Under the pieces are notes generated by a model. It saw nothing but the letters and a program-made list of their open reading frames with translations. It did no database searches and was not told the origin of the DNA. This document shows, piece by piece, positions 10,762 through 60,360 of a stretch of 64,000 nucleotides of DNA. A program made the position numbers and the translations under genes. Source of the DNA: Bacteroidia bacterium (GTDB lineage: Bacteria > Bacteroidota > Bacteroidia > Chitinophagales > Saprospiraceae); contig JAUIKE010000007.1 in the NCBI GenBank assembly GCA_030430845.1, positions 1-64,000 of the forward strand. Direction: 5' to 3'. Each line of letters starts with the position of its first letter. The first letter of the stretch is position 1.

Positions 10762-10910
10762 GGCGTGGGGTTGTGTAAAAAGTCCTTCGTCCCTACGCCA
10801 TGCCCCTACGCTCTCTGGCCTCCGTTAGCACTTCGGCGAGGAGGCGCAGCTTCGGCGCAAGTGTAAGACTTCGGCCGACGGCGTACGGCCTTTTAACACA
10901 ACCTCACGCC
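10762..10910. repeat. GTTGTGT-type composite palindromic repeat (element A)
   Basis: Terminal inverted repeats GGCGTGGGGTTGTGTaAAAAG / ...CCTTTTAACACAACCTCACGCC, TCCTTCG at left end, internal small palindromes. Confidence 0.7.
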
Positions 10911-13359: not shown

Positions 13360-13473
13360 AGTTAAATTGGCTTGGTTTGGTTAGTGCTGAATTTGAAACA
13401 AAAATAGGCTTTGTAGCTGATATTTTAGTAAAGCAGTTGAAAAGTTTGAATAATGATTCTGCAGTTGTACAAT

Positions 13474-13667
13474 GTGATGCTAGGCCCTCCTTCGTCGGGC
13501 CGATGCTGAGATGCTGATGCGGCCTGCAGCCGCATGATGCTGAAGGTTGAGTTTACTAAAATAGAGGTTAATTCTCCTACTGAGGCATAAGCAAACGTCA
13601 GCATCTCCGCGCCGCAGGCGTGAAAGCATCCTAGCATCGGCCCGACGAAGGAGGGCCTAGCATCACA
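13474..13667. repeat. MITE-like element with about 35-bp terminal inverted repeats
   Basis: TGTGATGCTAGGCCCTCCTTCGTCGGGCCGATGCT / AGCATCGGCCCGACGAAGGAGGGCCTAGCATCACA. Confidence 0.75.
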
Positions 13668-26905: not shown

Positions 26906-27049
26906 ATGAACGATACCGTGTTTTACATCGTCGTCTTCGTTATCATTGCTCATTTTATAGTAGGCTTCGTTTTTTTAGCGAAAAAATTGAGCGGGCCGGT
27001 AAGAGAAGAGCCCTGGGATGAAGAAGTAGAGGAGGATAAAATCAACTAA
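26906..27049 (+). CDS. 47-aa single-TM small protein (not in the ORF track)
   Basis: MNDTVFYIVVFVIIAHFIVGFVFLAKKLSGPVREEPWDEEVEEDKIN; clean TM followed by acidic tail. Confidence 0.6.
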   Translation: MNDTVFYIVVFVIIAHFIVGFVFLAKKLSGPVREEPWDEEVEEDKIN

Positions 27050-27086
27050 TAATGTCGACGGCCGTCGACATTATTAGTTGATTTTA
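27037..27086. terminator. 50-bp perfect palindrome spanning the 3' end of the small ORF
   Basis: TAAAATCAACTAATAATGTCGACGG|CCGTCGACATTATTAGTTGATTTTA. Confidence 0.8.
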
Positions 27087-28596: not shown

Positions 28597-28645
28597 TTAT
28601 GCTTACCTGCATCAGGCGGAGCCCGCCTGATGCAGGTAAGCATAA
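28597..28645. terminator. Perfect 23-bp-arm hairpin
   Basis: TTATGCTTACCTGCATCAGGCGG-agc-CCGCCTGATGCAGGTAAGCATAA. Confidence 0.85.
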
Positions 28646-31954: not shown

Positions 31955-32016
31955 AATGAATGTTTACAGTGTTGATGGTGATCGGTAGGCCACCATCAAC
32001 ACTGTAAACATTCATT
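31955..32016. terminator. Convergent-gene terminator, 26-bp perfect arms
   Basis: AATGAATGTTTACAGTGTTGATGGTG-atcggtaggc-CACCATCAACACTGTAAACATTCATT; overlaps GH3 stop codon. Confidence 0.85.
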
Positions 32017-34739: not shown

Positions 34740-34806
34740 AACATTGAAGTTTAAAAAATTATTCTCCCCCCGCCGGGGGGAGAATAATTTTTTAAACTTC
34801 AATGTT
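34740..34806. terminator. Perfect 32-bp-arm hairpin, nested in a longer imperfect inverted repeat
   Basis: AACATTGAAGTTTAAAAAATTATTCTCCCCCC-gcc-GGGGGGAGAATAATTTTTTAAACTTCAATGTT. Confidence 0.85.
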
Positions 34807-36724: not shown

Positions 36725-36885
36725 TTTTTCAAAAAAAAGGGGGCGTCTCAAATGCCCTTCGGCTATTTCGCCAACCAATATTATTTCTTTGGGAGGTGCC
36801 CATCCTGGCACCTCCCAAAAAGAAAATTATCTGGCGGCGAATAACGACGAAGGAGTTATGAGACGCCCCCTTTTTTTTTGAAAAA
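36725..36885. repeat. Diverged composite palindromic repeat (GGGGGCGTCTCA type, element F)
   Basis: Outer IR TTTTTCAAAAAAAAGGGGGCGTCTCA / TGAGACGCCCCCTTTTTTTTTGAAAAA; central GGGAGGTGCC-catcct-GGCACCTCCC. Confidence 0.85.
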
Positions 36886-46584: not shown

Positions 46585-46738
46585 GGGGTTTTGTAAAAAG
46601 TCCTTCGGCCTTCTTGCCGGCCGGCAGGCGGGTGGGAGGTCGTTTTAAGAAAAAAACTTTGTTTTTTTCTTAAAACGACCTCCTAAATAAAATTTTCTGG
46701 GGCGGGTAAAAACGAGGAACGAGTTTTTACACAACCCC
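46585..46738. repeat. GTTGTGT-type composite palindromic repeat (element C)
   Basis: GGGGTTTTGTAAAAAGTCCTTCGGCC ... GGAGGTCGTTTTAAGAAAAAAAC-ttt-GTTTTTTTCTTAAAACGACCTCC ... CGAGGAACGAGTTTTTACACAACCCC. Confidence 0.85.
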
Positions 46739-46781
46739 GGATAAAATTGGACGCCGCCCCGGGCGGCGTCCAATTTTATCC
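46739..46781. repeat. 43-nt near-perfect palindrome abutting element C
   Basis: GGATAAAATTGGACGCCGCCC-c-GGGCGGCGTCCAATTTTATCC. Confidence 0.85.
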
Positions 46782-46899
46782 CTAATTTGTAAATCTAAGG
46801 TGCGTGTATCGCAACTTAGATTAATTAGTAGACATTGTTTACCTTTAGGAATTATAGTTTAAGTAATGAGTTGTGTTTTTTTGGGCCTTAACGCATGTG

Positions 46900-47240
46900 C
46901 CCGATCATACTCCAATACGAGGCCGTATGGCCAGGTACGTGTTGCACAGGACTGTTATGTTCTGAAACCCCAAGAGCCTCGGAGAGGCGAAATATGGGTA
47001 ACAATGGGCTATCTTCCTTACCTAAAGCCCCAGCGGAGCGTAATATCTGTATCGAGGCTTTAGAAACGGACACCAAGTATTGAAAGAGGCTAAAATGACC
47101 TTTTTAGCAAGTATATGTCGCACCTCTGGAGCTTTGGGGCAGTATGCAGGACTTGGTTACCGATATTTCGCACCTCTGTGCGGGCCGTATGGCCGGAGCT
47201 TCTTGACATAGAACTTAACAGCCCTGCAGTACCGATCGAT
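46900..47240. repeat. Degenerate REP-like repeat cluster
   Basis: Recurring GGCCGTATGGCC, TCGCACCTCT, CCCCAAGAGCCTC / GAGCTTTGGGGC motifs; no convincing CDS. Confidence 0.45.
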
Positions 47241-47394
47241 GTATGGATTGAAAACGCCTGCTTATGCTGATCTGTGCTGTTAGATAGTGCAAGGGTTTAG
47301 ACAACTCAAACAGCGAAAATCAGCATAAATCCCTGCCCGCCAACCCAGTCTTTGGCAGGCGGGAGCGTTTATCAGCGGCCAAAAAAATCTACAT

Positions 47395-48783
47395 TTGCGA
47401 ATAAAGTCGAAAAAAATAATGACCAAACTACCCGGAATCCCCCGCTGGCAATCAGCTGTCTCTTCCTTTAAAATGGCCCGGAATCCCCTGCCCTTTCTCA
47501 ATAAATTTATTCGGGAAAAAGGAACCACCGTACAGGTATACCTTGGGGGGCTATACAAAATGATCCTGACCACCGACCCTGATTTTATACAGCACATCCT
47601 CCAAAAAAATAATAAGAACTACCGCAAATCAGAAGTTCACTTCGACAAGATCCAACACTTCCTTGGCCGCGGCCTGCTCACCAGCGAAGGACCCTACTGG
47701 CTGCAACAAAGAAGACTCATTCAGCCGGGCTTTCACAAAAAACGCCTCGAAGCTCTGTTAGAGTTGATGGACAAAGTCGCCATTGAGGTACTGAACGATT
47801 TAGACGAGGAGATCAAAACTCTGCCGGAGGTGGATATGTATGAAAAAATGCTGGAAATTACTTTCCGCATCATTGCCAATTCCATCTTCGGACAAGACCT
47901 GGGGCCGGAACAGTTGACCAAGCTAAGCGATAGCATTACGACCTTACAGGCCTTTATTGTCCGCCAGATCCGCCAGCCATACCTTAATTCCTGGCTGAAA
48001 TTTTCCGGTCAGGTCAAAGAACATGAAAAATTACGGGATGAAGCAGATGCCATTATCCGGCATTACATCGAAGAGCGAAGACAATCTGAAGAATCTCATT
48101 CAGACCTGCTCCAAATGTTGATGGAAGCTCGCTATGAGGACACTGGCGAGGGTATGACCGACCAGCAGTTGATCGACGAGGTCAAGATCCTTTTCGTGGC
48201 GGGGCACGACACCTCGGCCAATGCCCTGGCCTGGACCTGGTATTTGCTGACTCAGCACCCGGAAGCTTTGGAAAAAGTCAGACAAGAGGTGACGGCAATA
48301 ATAGGAGAGGGGCAGCCTTCTTTCGAAAATGTTATGCAGCTGGAATATACCCAGCAAGTAATCGAAGAATCCATGCGTCTTTTCCCGCCGGCCTGGACGA
48401 CCAACCGGGTAGCAGCGGAAGATGATGAATTTAAAGGCATTCCAATAAAAAAAGGGACAACTTTCGCTACCTATATATATGGTGTGCATCATTCGCCCGA
48501 GCTTTGGGACGATCCGGAGTCTTTTAAGCCGGAGCGTTTTTCCAAAGAAGAAAAGAAAAAACACCATCCGTATGCATTTATTCCATTTGGGGGTGGCCCC
48601 AGGCTATGTATTGGTAATAATTTTGCTTTGATGGAGATGAAGCTGATCCTGGCCCGTATGGTGAATCGGTATGAGATAAGCTTAATGCCTGGGCAGGAAG
48701 TAAAGCCATTGCCCTTGATTACCTTGAGGCCGGAGAATGGGATAAGGGTGAAGGTGAAAAAACTAAAGGAAAACTACAACTAA
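47395..48783 (+). CDS. Cytochrome P450
   Basis: I-helix AGHDTSANALAW, ExxR ESMR, heme-binding PFGGGPRLCIGNNFA. Confidence 0.96.
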   Translation: MRIKSKKIMTKLPGIPRWQSAVSSFKMARNPLPFLNKFIREKGTTVQVYLGGLYKMILTTDPDFIQHILQKNNKNYRKSEVHFDKIQHFLGRGLLTSEGPYWLQQRRLIQPGFHKKRLEALLELMDKVAIEVLNDLDEEIKTLPEVDMYEKMLEITFRIIANSIFGQDLGPEQLTKLSDSITTLQAFIVRQIRQPYLNSWLKFSGQVKEHEKLRDEADAIIRHYIEERRQSEESHSDLLQMLMEARYEDTGEGMTDQQLIDEVKILFVAGHDTSANALAWTWYLLTQHPEALEKVRQEVTAIIGEGQPSFENVMQLEYTQQVIEESMRLFPPAWTTNRVAAEDDEFKGIPIKKGTTFATYIYGVHHSPELWDDPESFKPERFSKEEKKKHHPYAFIPFGGGPRLCIGNNFALMEMKLILARMVNRYEISLMPGQEVKPLPLITLRPENGIRVKVKKLKENYN

Positions 48784-48802
48784 AGCTGTATCTTCAAGCC
48801 AA

Positions 48803-51139
48803 ATGAAAAAGAAAGACTCCACGCGCCGCCTCGCCGCTATTATGTTCACCGATATTGTGGGCTACACGGCCCTGATGCAGCAGGATGAAGCCAAAGCTGC
48901 CCAGGTTCGTCAGCGCCACCGCCAGGTGTTTGATGAGCTCCACCAAAAGCATCAAGGAGAGATCCTGCAATACTTTGGCGACGGCACCCTCAGCGTTTTC
49001 CAAAGCGGGGTAGAAGCCGTAGAATGTGCCCTGGCCATCCAGCTAGCCCTGCAGCAAGGGGAGCCTATCCCTCTTCGCATAGGCCTACATATAGGCGACA
49101 TTGTCTTTGATGGCACCGAAATATATGGGGATGGGGTGAATGTGGCTTCTCGCATTGAAAGCATGGGAATAGGAGGGGCTGTACTGCTATCAGGCCAATT
49201 AAATATTGAGCTGAAAAATCACCCACAGATCAACACTCGTTCATTGGGGCGGTTCGAATTTAAAAATGTAGCTCATCCTCAGGAAGTTTTTGCTGTGTCG
49301 AATACTGGTATTATTGTTCCGAAGCGTTCTGAGCTGAAAGGAAAACAAAAAAGCGCCACCAAGTCCATCGCGGTTTTGCCATTTGTCAATATGAGCTCAA
49401 AGGAAGAGAATGAGTATTTCAGTGATGGCATGACCGAAGAGATCATTAATGCTTTGACGAAGATCAAAGGCTTAAAGGTGACTTCCCGAACTTCTTCCTT
49501 CTTTTTTAAAAATAAAAATATCCCCATCCGGCAGATTGGCCAGGAGCTAAATGTATCTACCATACTAGAAGGTAGTATTCGCCTCGCCGGAAATCAGATG
49601 CGGATCACGGCTCAGCTGATCGATGTACTGGATGATTATCATTTTTGGTCGGAAACCTTTGATCGTTCTATAGAGGACATTTTCGCGGTACAGGATGAGA
49701 TCAGCCTCTTGATTGCCGACAAACTCAGGGAGCACGTTGGCCACTTTGAGATCGAAGACCATTTAGTAGAAGCACCGGATGTTTCAGTGAGTAATTACAA
49801 GCGCTACCTCCAGAGTCGCTACTATATACTCAGAATGAGTAAAGCGGACATAGACAAAGGAATAGCCATTCTAAAGGAGATCATCCAGGAACAGGCTGAT
49901 TTCGCATTGGCCTATCTTGGGCTGCATTTGGGATACACCCTACAAGGTACAATTGGATTGATGCCTTCAAAAGAAGCTTTTTTGGAAGGCCATAGGTATC
50001 TTCAAAAAGCCATTCAACTACAACCGGATCTTCCGGAATGCCACCTTCATCAATCCTGGAATTGTTTACTTCAAAAATGGGATTTAGCCTGTACCTATGA
50101 GCATCTCAACCGGTCATTTGAATTGCGCCCGACCGTGGATTATTATCAGTCGATGACTTCAACAATCGTAGCGGAAGGCCGTTACAAGGCCGCCATGAAT
50201 TATATCGACACAGCTATTCAGTTAGATCCTTTTTCCCATATTAATTATCATCTAAAGGGATTTGTCTTCTATTGTCAGGGTAAGTTTGATGAGGCGATTG
50301 AATTTTTTAAAAAGAGTACACAGCTGAGTTCCAGTCATTCTTTATCTGCCATGGAATGGGGAATGGCCCTGATTCAAGCCGGGCGGCCAGAGGAAAGCCT
50401 GCGGTTTTATCAAAACCTGCCGGAGGATGAACCGGGAGATATTTTAAAATTAGGGGGGACAACGCTTGCCTACGCGGCTCTCGGGGATACGGTTCGGGCA
50501 GAGAAAGGACTCCGGCAACTGGAGGCCTTTGGGGATACCGAATTGATAGAGCGGGCCCTTCTTTTTCTGATTTATGGAAATTTTTTATTGGGCAAAAAAG
50601 AGGAAGTTCTGGCGCTCATTGAACAAGGTATCCAGCAACGATTGCCCTTGCTGGTTTATCTTCCAGGAGAACCTCTGTTAAAGCCGTATCATTCAGATCC
50701 TCGATTTAAGGCACTTACGTCGAGAATATTGGGTAAGAATGTATCTTTCGATGTTTCAACAAGGAAGTATAAAAAAAATCTGCTCAGTAAAGAGGATTTA
50801 AAGAACTACAAAAAACAATTAGAACAACTTATGAAGGAGGAGCGTCCTTATCTGGACCCAAAACTGTCACTCCGCTCATTAGCTCAATTAATGGAGATCC
50901 CTCCCAACCAACTATCTCAATTGCTGAACGATGGGTTTAATCAAAACTTCTCTGAATATGTCAATTCCTACCGCTTGAGTACTTTCAAAAAGTTGGTTGC
51001 CGATCCTGCTTATCAACATATGACCCTCCTGGCTCTGGCCCACGAAAGTGGCTTCAACTCCAAAACGGTTTTTAATACTTTCTTTAAAAAAGTGGAGGGA
51101 AAAACGCCCAAAGCTTTTTGGAAAGAAATTAACGGGTAA
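48803..51139 (+). CDS. Class III nucleotide cyclase-like domain + TolB/FlgO-like + TPR + AraC-type DNA-binding fusion
   Basis: MFTDIVGYTALM, YFGDGTLSVF, YGDGVNVASRIES; SIAVLPFVNMSS; C-terminal HESGFNSKTVFNTFFKKVEGKTPKAFWK. Confidence 0.88.
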   Translation: MKKKDSTRRLAAIMFTDIVGYTALMQQDEAKAAQVRQRHRQVFDELHQKHQGEILQYFGDGTLSVFQSGVEAVECALAIQLALQQGEPIPLRIGLHIGDIVFDGTEIYGDGVNVASRIESMGIGGAVLLSGQLNIELKNHPQINTRSLGRFEFKNVAHPQEVFAVSNTGIIVPKRSELKGKQKSATKSIAVLPFVNMSSKEENEYFSDGMTEEIINALTKIKGLKVTSRTSSFFFKNKNIPIRQIGQELNVSTILEGSIRLAGNQMRITAQLIDVLDDYHFWSETFDRSIEDIFAVQDEISLLIADKLREHVGHFEIEDHLVEAPDVSVSNYKRYLQSRYYILRMSKADIDKGIAILKEIIQEQADFALAYLGLHLGYTLQGTIGLMPSKEAFLEGHRYLQKAIQLQPDLPECHLHQSWNCLLQKWDLACTYEHLNRSFELRPTVDYYQSMTSTIVAEGRYKAAMNYIDTAIQLDPFSHINYHLKGFVFYCQGKFDEAIEFFKKSTQLSSSHSLSAMEWGMALIQAGRPEESLRFYQNLPEDEPGDILKLGGTTLAYAALGDTVRAEKGLRQLEAFGDTELIERALLFLIYGNFLLGKKEEVLALIEQGIQQRLPLLVYLPGEPLLKPYHSDPRFKALTSRILGKNVSFDVSTRKYKKNLLSKEDLKNYKKQLEQLMKEERPYLDPKLSLRSLAQLMEIPPNQLSQLLNDGFNQNFSEYVNSYRLSTFKKLVADPAYQHMTLLALAHESGFNSKTVFNTFFKKVEGKTPKAFWKEING

Positions 51140-51301
51140 TGGGGTTGTGTAAAAACGAGGAACGAGTTTTTACACAACCCATTAAATTTTTTTTGGGAGG
51201 TCGTTTTAAGAAAAAAACAAAGTTTTTTTCTTAAAACGACCTCCCAAAAATATATTATTGGTTGTGTAAAAGGCAGAACGAGTTTTCACACAACCCCATT
51301 A
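51137..51301. repeat. GTTGTGT-type composite palindromic repeat (element D, three hairpins)
   Basis: TAATGGGGTTGTGTAAAAACgaggaacgaGTTTTTACACAACCCATTA; GGGAGGTCG...CGACCTCCC; GGTTGTGTAAAAggcagaacgaGTTTTcACACAACCCCATTA. Confidence 0.9.
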
Positions 51302-51438
51302 GTGCTGAAATAAGTTCGGATTTTTAAATCCGAACGATTCTAAACCGGTACGCCCTTAATTTTGGTACTGAATAACAAATTCTTTATCGGAAGATGTAGA
51401 CCCGCAAACTCCGGTAGCCAAAATTAAAAATCGAAATA

Positions 51439-52419
51439 ATGAAAGCCATCGTATTAACCCGGTATGGATCACCTGAAAACTTAGTCGTTCGTGAGATAAG
51501 CAAGCCTGTTCCAAAAGAAAATGAAGTCCTGATAAAAGTAGCTGCCACCACAGCTACTACGGCCGATACCATGATGCGGAAAGCTACCCCTTTCATCAGC
51601 CGCTTTTTTCTGGGGTTTTTCAGGCCTCGCAAAGCTGTTACCGGCACTGGCTTTGCCGGAGAGATTGTAGAAGTTGGTAAAAACGTTAGTCGTTTCGAGC
51701 TGGGCGACCAGGTTTTTGGAGAGACCGGCACGGATTTCGGAGCGAATGCCGAATATATTGCCTTGTCGGAAGAAGGGGTTATAGAAAAATTACCTTCCCA
51801 ATTGAGTTTAGAAGAGGCTGCTACTTTGACCGACGGCCCCCTGACCTCCCTTAATTTTTTGAAAAGCCTGGGTAAAATTAAAGGTGGTCAGAAAGTACTT
51901 ATCAATGGCGCTTCCGGAAGCCTGGGGACTGCTGCGGTACAGTTGGCCAGATATTACGGTGCAGAAGTGACCGGTGTGTCCAGTGCAAAGAATGCCGAAC
52001 TGGTTAAATCGCTTGGAGCTGATAAGGTTATTGACTATAGATCGACCGACTTTACAAAGGCAGGCGAGCAATACGATTTAATCTTTGATACAATTGGCAG
52101 CAGTTCGTTTTCCAAAACGAAAAAAGCCTTGAAGCAGGACGGATTGTATATGTCGCCGGTATTAAACATAGGATTATTATTTCAAGTGATATTTACGGCT
52201 AAAAGCCGGAAGAAAGCCATATTTTCGGCTACCGGATTATTACCGCATGATGAATTGAGGGCATTACTGAAGGACTTAATCGGTATCATCGAAGGTGGTT
52301 ACTTAAAGCCGGTAATTGATCGGCAATATCCTCTGGAAAAAGCAGCAGAAGCGCATAAATATGTAGATACCGGCAGGAAGAGAGGGAATGTGGTTTTAGT
52401 AACAAAAATGTATGGATGA
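51439..52419 (+). CDS. NAD(P)-dependent alcohol dehydrogenase / quinone oxidoreductase (MDR superfamily)
   Basis: MKAIVLTRYGSPENLVVREI; GASGSLGTAAVQLARYYGAEVTGVSS. Confidence 0.93.
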   Translation: MKAIVLTRYGSPENLVVREISKPVPKENEVLIKVAATTATTADTMMRKATPFISRFFLGFFRPRKAVTGTGFAGEIVEVGKNVSRFELGDQVFGETGTDFGANAEYIALSEEGVIEKLPSQLSLEEAATLTDGPLTSLNFLKSLGKIKGGQKVLINGASGSLGTAAVQLARYYGAEVTGVSSAKNAELVKSLGADKVIDYRSTDFTKAGEQYDLIFDTIGSSSFSKTKKALKQDGLYMSPVLNIGLLFQVIFTAKSRKKAIFSATGLLPHDELRALLKDLIGIIEGGYLKPVIDRQYPLEKAAEAHKYVDTGRKRGNVVLVTKMYG

Positions 52420-52459
52420 AGGTGGCAACAGCCATCTTCGTCTAATAAAATTCTTTTGA

Positions 52460-53266
52460 ATGAAACGAATCCAGCTTTTTGAATTTGAAGATTTCACCTG
52501 GCTCCCGAAACCCATCAGAACCGGGATGACCAACCTGATCGTCGTTTTTCATAAAATGACCGGTACGAGCAACGTGATTGCGGACCTGATAGAGAAGGTC
52601 CGTTCTAAACATCCTTTTTCCCAAATAGTAGACTTGGGCTCCGGCTCGGGCGGAGCGATGCCGGAGGTTATCCGTCAGATAAATGAAAATACGGAGGCCG
52701 CGCCCCTTCAATTGATCTTAAGCGACTTACATCCGCATCCCGACATCGTCGCCCGTTTTAATAAAGATGAATCTAAGAACATCAGCTACCACCCGGATTC
52801 CGTTGATGCGACTCGTCTGAAAGACGTTCCTCAAGGTTTGAAAACGATGATGAACAGTTTTCATCACATGCCCCCGGACAAGGCCAGGGATATTTTGCGT
52901 TCAGCACAGGAAAAGAGGGAACCTTTGCTAATCTATGAGATGGCGGAGAATAACATCCCCACCCTGGTATGGTGGTTGTTTTTGCCGCTCTCTCTGGCTA
53001 TTTTGATCGTGATGACGTTGTTTATGACACCATTTGTGCGGCCTCTCAGCTGGCAGCAAGTGGTTTTTACCTACTTAATTCCTGTGATCCCGATCTTGTA
53101 TGCCTGGGACGGGCAGGCATCTATGGTAAGGATGTACACATTTAAGGATGTCGAGGAATTGCTGAAAGACATCAAACAGGATGACTACAGCTGGGAGATG
53201 GGGCAGGCAAAAAAAGAGAATGGGAAAAAACAGGGGTATTATGTTTTAGGCTTACCCCAAAAATAG
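52460..53266 (+). CDS. Class I SAM-dependent methyltransferase-like, membrane-associated
   Basis: IVDLGSGSGGAMPEV motif I; two C-terminal TM segments. Confidence 0.8.
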   Translation: MKRIQLFEFEDFTWLPKPIRTGMTNLIVVFHKMTGTSNVIADLIEKVRSKHPFSQIVDLGSGSGGAMPEVIRQINENTEAAPLQLILSDLHPHPDIVARFNKDESKNISYHPDSVDATRLKDVPQGLKTMMNSFHHMPPDKARDILRSAQEKREPLLIYEMAENNIPTLVWWLFLPLSLAILIVMTLFMTPFVRPLSWQQVVFTYLIPVIPILYAWDGQASMVRMYTFKDVEELLKDIKQDDYSWEMGQAKKENGKKQGYYVLGLPQK

Positions 53267-53325
53267 CATAAAGGGGTTGTGTAAAAAGTCCTTCGGCCTT
53301 TTTACACAACCCCTTTATGCTATTT
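53261..53325. terminator. GTTGTGT monomer hairpin (element E) acting as convergent terminator
   Basis: AAATAGCATAAAGGGGTTGTGTAAAAAG-tccttcggc-CTTTTTACACAACCCCTTTATGCTATTT; 28-bp arms include a stop codon. Confidence 0.88.
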
Positions 53326-53326
53326 G

Positions 53327-53785
53327 CTATTTTACCAAATTCAGTTCTTGAAAGATCTCTACTCCGTCTCTAAACTCCAGGCTCTCCCAGTTTTGCCGGG
53401 TCATAGTCCAGATAATAGGATCCTGAAAGATGATCCGGTCAGGAGAGGAGATAGAAGTACCAAAGGAAATGACCATGGATTTGGAAGTGCGGGCTCTCCA
53501 AAGGAAGGTACTTACGAGGATACCGTTATTATCCCGAAAGAGTGGAAAGTTTGTTTCGCCGGTACCGTCATCATAAAAAGTAATGGTATAATCGTCATCA
53601 CGTTCGACGGATTCAACGGCCAGGATGTTCCCAAAATTATCCCGAACTTCTTTAAAGTAGAGTTCAACTTCCCAGGTACCCGGTAAATTTTCATTTTGAT
53701 CATCGCGGAATTCTTTTCCCTCTTTGCACGAGGACAGTAAAAACACTAAACTGAGGGAAAGAAGAAATACGAATTTCTTTTTCAT
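53327..53785 (-). CDS. Hypothetical lipoprotein (lipocalin-like)
   Basis: LSLVFLLSSCKEGKEF lipobox; LPGTWEVELYFKEV. Confidence 0.7.
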   Translation of the reverse strand: MKKKFVFLLSLSLVFLLSSCKEGKEFRDDQNENLPGTWEVELYFKEVRDNFGNILAVESVERDDDYTITFYDDGTGETNFPLFRDNNGILVSTFLWRARTSKSMVISFGTSISSPDRIIFQDPIIWTMTRQNWESLEFRDGVEIFQELNLVK

Positions 53786-53811
53786 ATGCAGATGGTTAAA
53801 TAATGCAGAAT

Positions 53812-53863
53812 AAAGATAATGAATAGTATTGAAGCAGTTGCCCCAATACTATTCATTATCTTT
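53812..53863. terminator. 20-bp-arm palindrome covering the last codons of the adjacent minus-strand gene
   Basis: AAAGATAATGAATAGTATTG / CAATACTATTCATTATCTTT; encodes K-D-N-E-stop. Confidence 0.88.
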
Positions 53864-54286
53864 GCCCAGTTCTTTTACAGGTTCAATCTTGTACACAAAG
53901 TAATTGGTTTTTCCCTGCCAGGGCATGGCTCTGATAATTTCTCGATAATAAAGTTTGACCTGGTGCCCCTCATAGTCTTGTAATTCATCATAGATATCAT
54001 CTTTCCATACGGAGAACTCCCAAATATTTCCTGTAATTCCCTCCGGCCCTTCCGTTTTGAAGCCACCCAGGTTGAGTTGCCCTTCATAGGTTTTGAACAT
54101 CACCCCTTTCTTGGATAATTTGATCAGGGTGCCGGCCCTGGCTCCCTTGCTGTAAGTATAATTACTCACCAGGAAAAAACCAGCCGCACTTAGTAAGCCT
54201 AAAATTAAAAGACCTACTAAAAAGCGTTTGAAGATCTTTCCGATCTTTTGTTTGCCTTCTTTGACTACTTGTTGGTATTCACTCAT
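53849..54286 (-). CDS. Conserved hypothetical single-TM protein
   Basis: 145-aa ORF, TM FLVGLLILGLLSAAGFFLVSNYTYSKGARAGTLIKLSKKGVMFKTYEGQL. Confidence 0.75.
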   Translation of the reverse strand: MSEYQQVVKEGKQKIGKIFKRFLVGLLILGLLSAAGFFLVSNYTYSKGARAGTLIKLSKKGVMFKTYEGQLNLGGFKTEGPEGITGNIWEFSVWKDDIYDELQDYEGHQVKLYYREIIRAMPWQGKTNYFVYKIEPVKELGKDNE

Positions 54287-54377
54287 GATTTTCGGAGGTA
54301 TTGCTTTTTAATGAAACAATTGTTTTTCATAATAAGTTGGACGTCAATCGGTATACCAGGTAACAAATGTTTTGCCT

Positions 54378-55313
54378 CTACAGAGCTATCAGGCGGTCCA
54401 AGGCAAAAATAGACTTTGGGTGAAAATCCTTTCCATCCCACAGTCCGAAAATACTCAAGGGCTGATCGGCGGTCAGTGCCAGTAGCTTCCAGTACCCATC
54501 TCGCTTATGGACTAAGGGCAGTGCTTGGTTTGATTGATCCATGATCAGAAAATCAGATTCGTCGAGCACAATTTGTACTTGATTGAGCAAACAGGGGTAG
54601 TTGTCCAGCCATGGGTTTCGTTGTAAGGATTTGGCGAAAAAAAGGCTCATTTGCTGTAATGTTTTGAATCCTCCTTTTCCTTTAAACGTTCCTTTGAAAG
54701 GAACCGGTGCTTTAAATAAAGCTCTGTCCTGGGAAGCCCCGGGATAATAAATAATTTCACCTTTATAGAGCCCGCCGAACACAAACTCGGGGAAAAAGCC
54801 GGCGCTTCCCCAAGAGAAGTCAAGTAGCAAGGCAAGCTCCTTACTTTTTTCTCCGTACAGCCAAATCCGCCGAAAGTGAAGCTTTTCTTCTTCTCCGAAA
54901 TCCTGACTGATAACGAGCCAGGTATCGACTGTACCTTTTTCCTGTAGGAGGGCTTCTTTATTGATTCGTACTCCACAAATGCGCAACAGCTCGCATTGTT
55001 GTTCTTCTTTTAGCTGGTCTATTTGTAGCAAAGCCCGGCTAATCAGGTAGAGGCGACTAATTTCCCGGAGGGTTTTTTCCTCCCAATATTCTTCTTCATC
55101 AGGGAGTGATTTGAGGGCCCGGATCCTTCTGGCCAGGTCCCCCAATTTGGCGTTGACCATCCGGCCGGCAATTTCTTCCCAAAATGCTTCTCCCTGCTGA
55201 TCCAGGATGACCAGTCCCTGGCGCAAGAGGTCGAGCAGCCATCGCTCTAATTCCTGAGCGCCGGCCTGCATTTCGCTGATCCGTGCATCATTAACTTTTA
55301 GGAGGCTCTTCAT
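54378..55313 (-). CDS. Hypothetical protein (start MKSLLKVNDARISEMQAG)
   Basis: Long ORF; upstream part of the listed ORF lies in a repeat element, so the start was moved. Confidence 0.7.
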   Translation of the reverse strand: MKSLLKVNDARISEMQAGAQELERWLLDLLRQGLVILDQQGEAFWEEIAGRMVNAKLGDLARRIRALKSLPDEEEYWEEKTLREISRLYLISRALLQIDQLKEEQQCELLRICGVRINKEALLQEKGTVDTWLVISQDFGEEEKLHFRRIWLYGEKSKELALLLDFSWGSAGFFPEFVFGGLYKGEIIYYPGASQDRALFKAPVPFKGTFKGKGGFKTLQQMSLFFAKSLQRNPWLDNYPCLLNQVQIVLDESDFLIMDQSNQALPLVHKRDGYWKLLALTADQPLSIFGLWDGKDFHPKSIFALDRLIAL

Positions 55314-55326
55314 AGAGAGGGAGGTT

Positions 55327-55521
55327 ATGGTTTTGGGGTTGTGTAAAAACTCGTTCCTCGCCTGCCTGACGGCAGTCAGGTTTTTACATAACCCCATTAA
55401 ATTTTATTTGGTAGTTCGTTTTAAGAAAAAAACTTTGTTTTTTTCTTAAAACGAACTACCAAAAGAATATTATTGGTTGTGTGAAAAGGCCGAAGGACTT
55501 TTTACACAACCCCCAAACCAT
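55327..55521. repeat. GTTGTGT-type composite palindromic repeat (element G, opposite orientation)
   Basis: GGGGTTGTGTAAAAACTCGTTCCTCG...; central GGTAGTTCG...CGAACTACC; ...GGCCGAAGGACTTTTTACACAACCCCC. Confidence 0.9.
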
Positions 55522-60307: not shown

Positions 60308-60360
60308 GGGGTTGGGGTTGGGTAAAAACCAGAAACGAGTTTTTACCCAACCCTAACCCC
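60308..60360. terminator. GTTGGGT variant monomer hairpin downstream of pyk
   Basis: GGGGTTgGGGTTGGGTAAAAAC-cagaaacga-GTTTTTACCCAACCCtAACCCC, one mismatch in 22. Confidence 0.85.

Follow-up and report, generated by a model that had tools for sequence, protein, structure and literature searches.

Three-hairpin repeats in the window

The DNA analysed here (the window, 64,000 nt) belongs to contig C158 of a Saprospiraceae-like genome of 9.1 Mb in 396 contigs. Three full copies of a palindromic repeat, named C, D and G in a preliminary description, were present with the anatomy described there; judging from their ends, discussed below, they are triple-hairpin MITEs of IS1182 type. Copy C (46585-46738, forward strand) has the TCCTTCGGC end at its left, with one substitution in that end (GGTTTTGTAAAAA), and a central hairpin (46635-46683, forward strand) with a TTT loop. 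Copy D (51141-51297, forward strand) starts 1 nt past the stop codon of the gene at 48803-51139 and lies between the inverted flanks TAAT (51137-51140, overlapping the stop codon) and ATTA (51298-51301), both read on the forward strand. On the same strand it consists of a first end hairpin (51142-51180), a central hairpin with 24-bp arms and an AAA loop (51195-51245) and a third end hairpin (51260-51297). Copy G (55335-55513, reverse strand) is flanked by ATGGTTTT (55327-55334) and CAAACCAT (55514-55521), given on the forward strand, and its central hairpin (55410-55460, reverse strand) carries the double substitutions GGTAGTTCG/CGAACTACC exactly as claimed. The repeat unit does have a direction, and G is reversed relative to C. 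The 24-bp central arms attributed to the repeat held for D; those of C comprise 23 perfect pairs and one G/T mismatch.

Four further copies, like the inversion of the flanking bases, had gone unmentioned. A single-hairpin copy without assigned strand (53273-53313) lies between two convergent genes, bordered on the forward strand by AAATAGCATAAA (53261-53272, including the left gene's stop codon) and TTTATGCTATTT (53314-53325). The other three, likewise unstranded, are a diverged single-hairpin copy at 60314-60354 (GGTTGGGTAAAAAC...), a copy with the same ends and an unrelated interior at 10767-10905, and a member of a second MITE family at 36739-36870, with the ends GGGGGCGTCTCA...TGAGACGCCCCC and the inverted flanks TTTTTCAAAAAAAA / TTTTTTTTTGAAAAA. 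Separately, about 600 nt between copy C and the gene at 47395 (46785-47390) hold no long open reading frame; this segment was not found at the syntenic place in G001, a genome of the same genus, and had no real Rfam match.

Copy number and distribution

A lack of further copies in the genome would have counted against the preliminary description; we estimate roughly 200-300 genome-wide from arm counts, allowing two to four arms for each element. With one mismatch or none, the arm GGTTGTGTAAAAA was counted 634 times genome-wide, compared to 50 for a reversed-pattern control, and the exact 15-mer GGGGTTGTGTAAAAA 346 times, compared to 0 in the control. The full 157-bp unit was found in 40 places among the candidates scored. 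Family statistics were drawn from ~1.27 Mb of the genome, a partly biased sample in that it was partly picked for carrying copies, and this sequence held 101 repeat clusters. Two forms were commonest: a triple hairpin whose outer arms lie 154 bp apart, exactly so in 35 copies, and, in 26 copies, a single hairpin of 37 bp. Contig ends held many of the copies, as expected because repeats break assemblies. The repeats are short, lack a transposase gene and occur as many dispersed copies, as MITEs do. A scan of named genomes returned only Saprospiraceae/Bacteroidetes MAGs, and among 120 genomes from the same family, nine contained the exact 15-mer.

Covariation of the central hairpin

Compensatory changes in the central hairpin had been read as suggesting selection on folded RNA or DNA, with two mutually exclusive folds; as RNA, the repeat would be a structured transcript or an RNA switch. 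The 51-nt central hairpins could be aligned gap-free, so pairing was counted directly over the 24 pairs of 38 distinct versions. Paired cells made up 98.6%, compared to 73.1% in shuffles, and 18 of the 24 pairs had changed on both sides, so that the covariation is real and strong. The folds are also very stable (z about -12 to -15). The alternative folds proposed are possible, the minimum-energy fold being end-to-end, as RNA for D and G and as DNA for D. What did not stand is the attribution to RNA. If selection acted on an RNA helix, G-U pairs should be tolerated and passed through, yet none was found among 899 paired cells, and the loop triplet, read relative to the ends, turns up either way round (TTT 17 and AAA 17; GAA 10 and TTC 5). 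The absence of G-U together with the inverted loops argues for copying between the arms at the DNA level rather than for RNA selection. The pattern fits such arm copying, or a function of the palindrome as DNA; template switching between arms is known from quasipalindromes (PMC7202029).

Other observations point the same way. The repeats occupy many unrelated sites, their ends are identical to those of an insertion sequence (IS), and between genomes the ends are constant while the interiors vary. No Rfam family matched in the window at gathering score; below it there were only chance-type matches to generic hairpins such as microRNA precursors. The structured-RNA reading is thus largely refuted, and we consider it very improbable. 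There is a pitfall here for covariation analysis at large: DNA arm copying can yield clean covariation in repeated hairpins, and a total lack of G-U pairs combined with inverted loops offers a simple test against RNA selection.

The ends match IS1182-family insertion sequences

G078, a related genome of the same family, contains five GGGGTTGTGTAAAAA pairs spaced 1,906 bp apart. They delimit five copies of an IS, four of which, in one orientation, have no differences, and whose ends, GGGGTTGTGTAAAAA...TTTTTACACAACCCC, are exactly the 15-bp ends of the window repeats. This IS codes for a 555-aa DDE transposase that matched the IS1182 profile NF033551 well above cut-off (E 7e-117). G078, G107 and G001 additionally contain short elements, 112-168 bp long, that share these ends and have unrelated interiors. 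Since their ends equal those of an IS1182-family IS, the window repeats are, by sequence, IS1182-type MITEs. The preliminary description had set its own reading against a match to a known IS end or MITE, and it is such a match that was found, placing the repeats among mobile DNA. G078 also holds another IS1182-like element (L292-L297) in at least six copies, its reading frame split into two frames.

The second MITE family in the window genome has a counterpart of this kind in G001, where two complete IS1182-family elements (L282 1365-3104 and L277 1402-3149) have the ends GAGGCTGTCTCATAA and transposases 38% identical to that of G078. These ends match the second three-hairpin family, which is present both in G001 and in the window genome (e.g. 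36739-36870), making the two elements good candidates for its autonomous partner. Both MITE families have a common inner layout, in which a central hairpin, with AAAAAC-NNN-GTTTTT at its tip, is flanked by AATAATATT-like spacers.

No autonomous IS1182 element was found in the 396-contig assembly of the window genome: a protein search gave nothing and a family search one weak partial match. The partner may have been lost, or it may be missing from this fragmented MAG. An autonomous partner in the same genome is usual for MITEs without being obligatory, and loss of the partner is common.

High copy number and extragenic pairs of inverted hairpins are also features of REP/REPIN-type palindromes, whose movement depends on a REP-associated tyrosine transposase (Y1_Tnp). 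The genome encodes five Y1_Tnp genes, one of them sharing a contig with a repeat copy, and none made a convincing partner. The nearest (L068) is not bracketed by repeats and scored as IS200/IS605, reaching 36 bits with the REP-transposase profile (REP_Tyr_transpos) against a cut-off of 80. The full 15-bp ends, in contrast, bracket an IS1182 DDE transposase in G078. We therefore regard a REP/REPIN origin as highly unlikely.

Insertion sites and flanking inverted repeats

Among 84 copies, the element ends showed no excess of long direct repeats that would indicate a target-site duplication. What was often seen, immediately beyond the GGGG and CCCC ends, was host sequence on one side that repeats the other side in inverted form. 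Perfect inverted arms of at least 5 bp flanked 24 of 63 copies, compared to 0.22 expected when flanks were re-paired, and arms of at least 8 bp flanked 11 of 63, compared to 0.02. The second MITE family behaved similarly, with arms of at least 5 bp in 5 of 17 copies (0.34 expected). About half of the copies in the window genome retain perfect arms of less than 3 bp, and there was little or no flank inversion around the IS copies of G078 and several 130-bp elements of G001 and G107. By crude ORF calls, all of 63 MITE copies lay outside genes, at a median of 15 nt from the closest stop codon.

Hairpins free of any MITE are frequent at comparable positions. In 1.2 Mb, we counted 194 unoccupied perfect hairpins whose arms measured 14 bp or longer, compared to 1 in a shuffle, at a median of 4 nt from a stop codon (crude ORF calls) and with AT-rich bases and GC-rich tips. 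Long non-MITE hairpins, each specific to its locus, stand behind many genes across the genome; of the 178 scored, with a median stem of 19 bp, 162 were free of mismatches, which suggests a palindrome-correcting process at the DNA level. Long perfect examples in the window lie at 34740-34806, 31955-32016, 27037-27086 and 28597-28645.

Comparison of occupied with empty sites was consistent with insertion into hairpins. Within another repeat family, one element sits exactly where a paralogue has the hairpin GTCCGCCTGTGGCGGAC, the bases on either side being the same; a second such pair of element and hairpin was similar and less exact. At the aligned orthologous sites in G001, ~62-77% identical around the sites, the element is absent. 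The site orthologous to D has a different hairpin (GTAGAAAGTA...TACTTTCTAC), several others carry inverted repeats, and that orthologous to G has neither arms nor hairpin. As far as such alignments indicate, the paralogous and orthologous sites fit insertion into hairpins, and some arms might be products of events after insertion.

The last point has a stronger form, in which the element inserts without any preference for hairpins and palindrome-correcting template switches make the inverted flanks afterwards, by copying one side onto the other. It would accommodate the bare G001 orthologue of G, the unusual perfection of palindromes in this genome and the loop inversion, which suggests arm copying. 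Against it stand the many hairpins of this kind that lie at equivalent positions and hold no element, the exact exchange of a hairpin in the one nested insertion and, in G001, one autonomous IS1182 copy that lies between convergent genes with a 23-bp inverted repeat around it. There is, in addition, the precedent of IS1272 (PMC4923244). We judge an exclusively post-insertion origin of the flanks to be unlikely.

A proposed model of hairpin replacement

The reading we favour, with a probability of roughly 0.83, is that MITEs with IS1182 ends are moved in trans and replace the tops of hairpins, mostly behind genes, and that their arms are kept matched by DNA-level copying. An IS1182-family transposase would act on these non-autonomous elements, recognising an inverted repeat that can form a hairpin, in most cases the one just behind a gene. 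It would cut symmetrically within the stem, drop the GC-rich top and join the element in its place, leaving no direct duplication. Of the host hairpin, the AT-rich lower part of the stem would often stay behind as the matching inverted flanks. Because the element is itself made of hairpins, the occupied site would remain a hairpin, and terminator function may be retained after insertion. Single-hairpin copies are probably deletion products that have lost the sequence between repeats carried in direct orientation by the two end hairpins, and the perfect arms would be kept by template switching or hairpin inversion.

Such a pattern appears to fit, by analogy, the hairpin-replacing insertion published for IS1272. 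IS1272 and TnSha1 of Staphylococcus insert into hairpins, several of them terminators confirmed by RNA-seq, where they apparently cut blunt, delete part of the stem and leave the target unduplicated (PMC4923244); a model in which the whole stem-loop is replaced has also been proposed (PMC5678879). IS1272 and TnSha1 have an IS1182-type transposase, target hairpins, largely terminators, remove the stem-loop partly or wholly, and show neither target duplication nor a target sequence consensus (PMC4923244, PMC5678879). The elements described here have ends of the IS1182 family and likewise no target duplication, and they probably resemble them in the other respects. They differ in that IS1272 and TnSha1 are autonomous or composite, whereas these are MITEs of about 41-190 bp in hundreds of copies, are hairpins themselves and would often leave the lower stem in place.

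Among other small mobile repeats, MITEPye1 of Paracoccus yeei is an IS1182-related MITE, with 1-3 copies per chromosome and direct-repeat flanks (PMC11578231); the present repeats occur in hundreds of copies, have no direct repeats and show a three-hairpin architecture. REP, BIME and REPIN sequences associated with RAYT are likewise extragenic inverted hairpin pairs of high copy number, but the ends found here are terminal repeats of DDE-type IS1182, and a RAYT association was not found. Our search of the literature for MITEs targeting terminators returned nothing relevant. New here are a copy number this high, a modular design of three hairpins common to two end types, and the apparent retention of lower stems. 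Hairpin-targeted insertion, described in staphylococci for IS1272, would thereby also take in Bacteroidota and MITEs of very high copy number, and the hundreds of insertion sites constitute a natural data set for mapping where in the stem an IS1182 transposase cuts.

A further reading, which we hold only tentatively and think more apt to be wrong than right, takes the event as a hairpin-for-hairpin exchange: MITEs bringing their own terminator-like hairpins would replace native ones, palindromes being perfected at the DNA level and modules recombining. Recombination of modules would follow from the presence of one common central module between two end types. Were this exchange to take place, terminators would be interchangeable mobile modules across the genome.

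A GATGCT-rich repeat family was also observed in the window (13473-13667), with related copies on contigs C3, C56, C110, C128 and C283. Its copies hold different hairpins at one internal position, one of these being a MITE.
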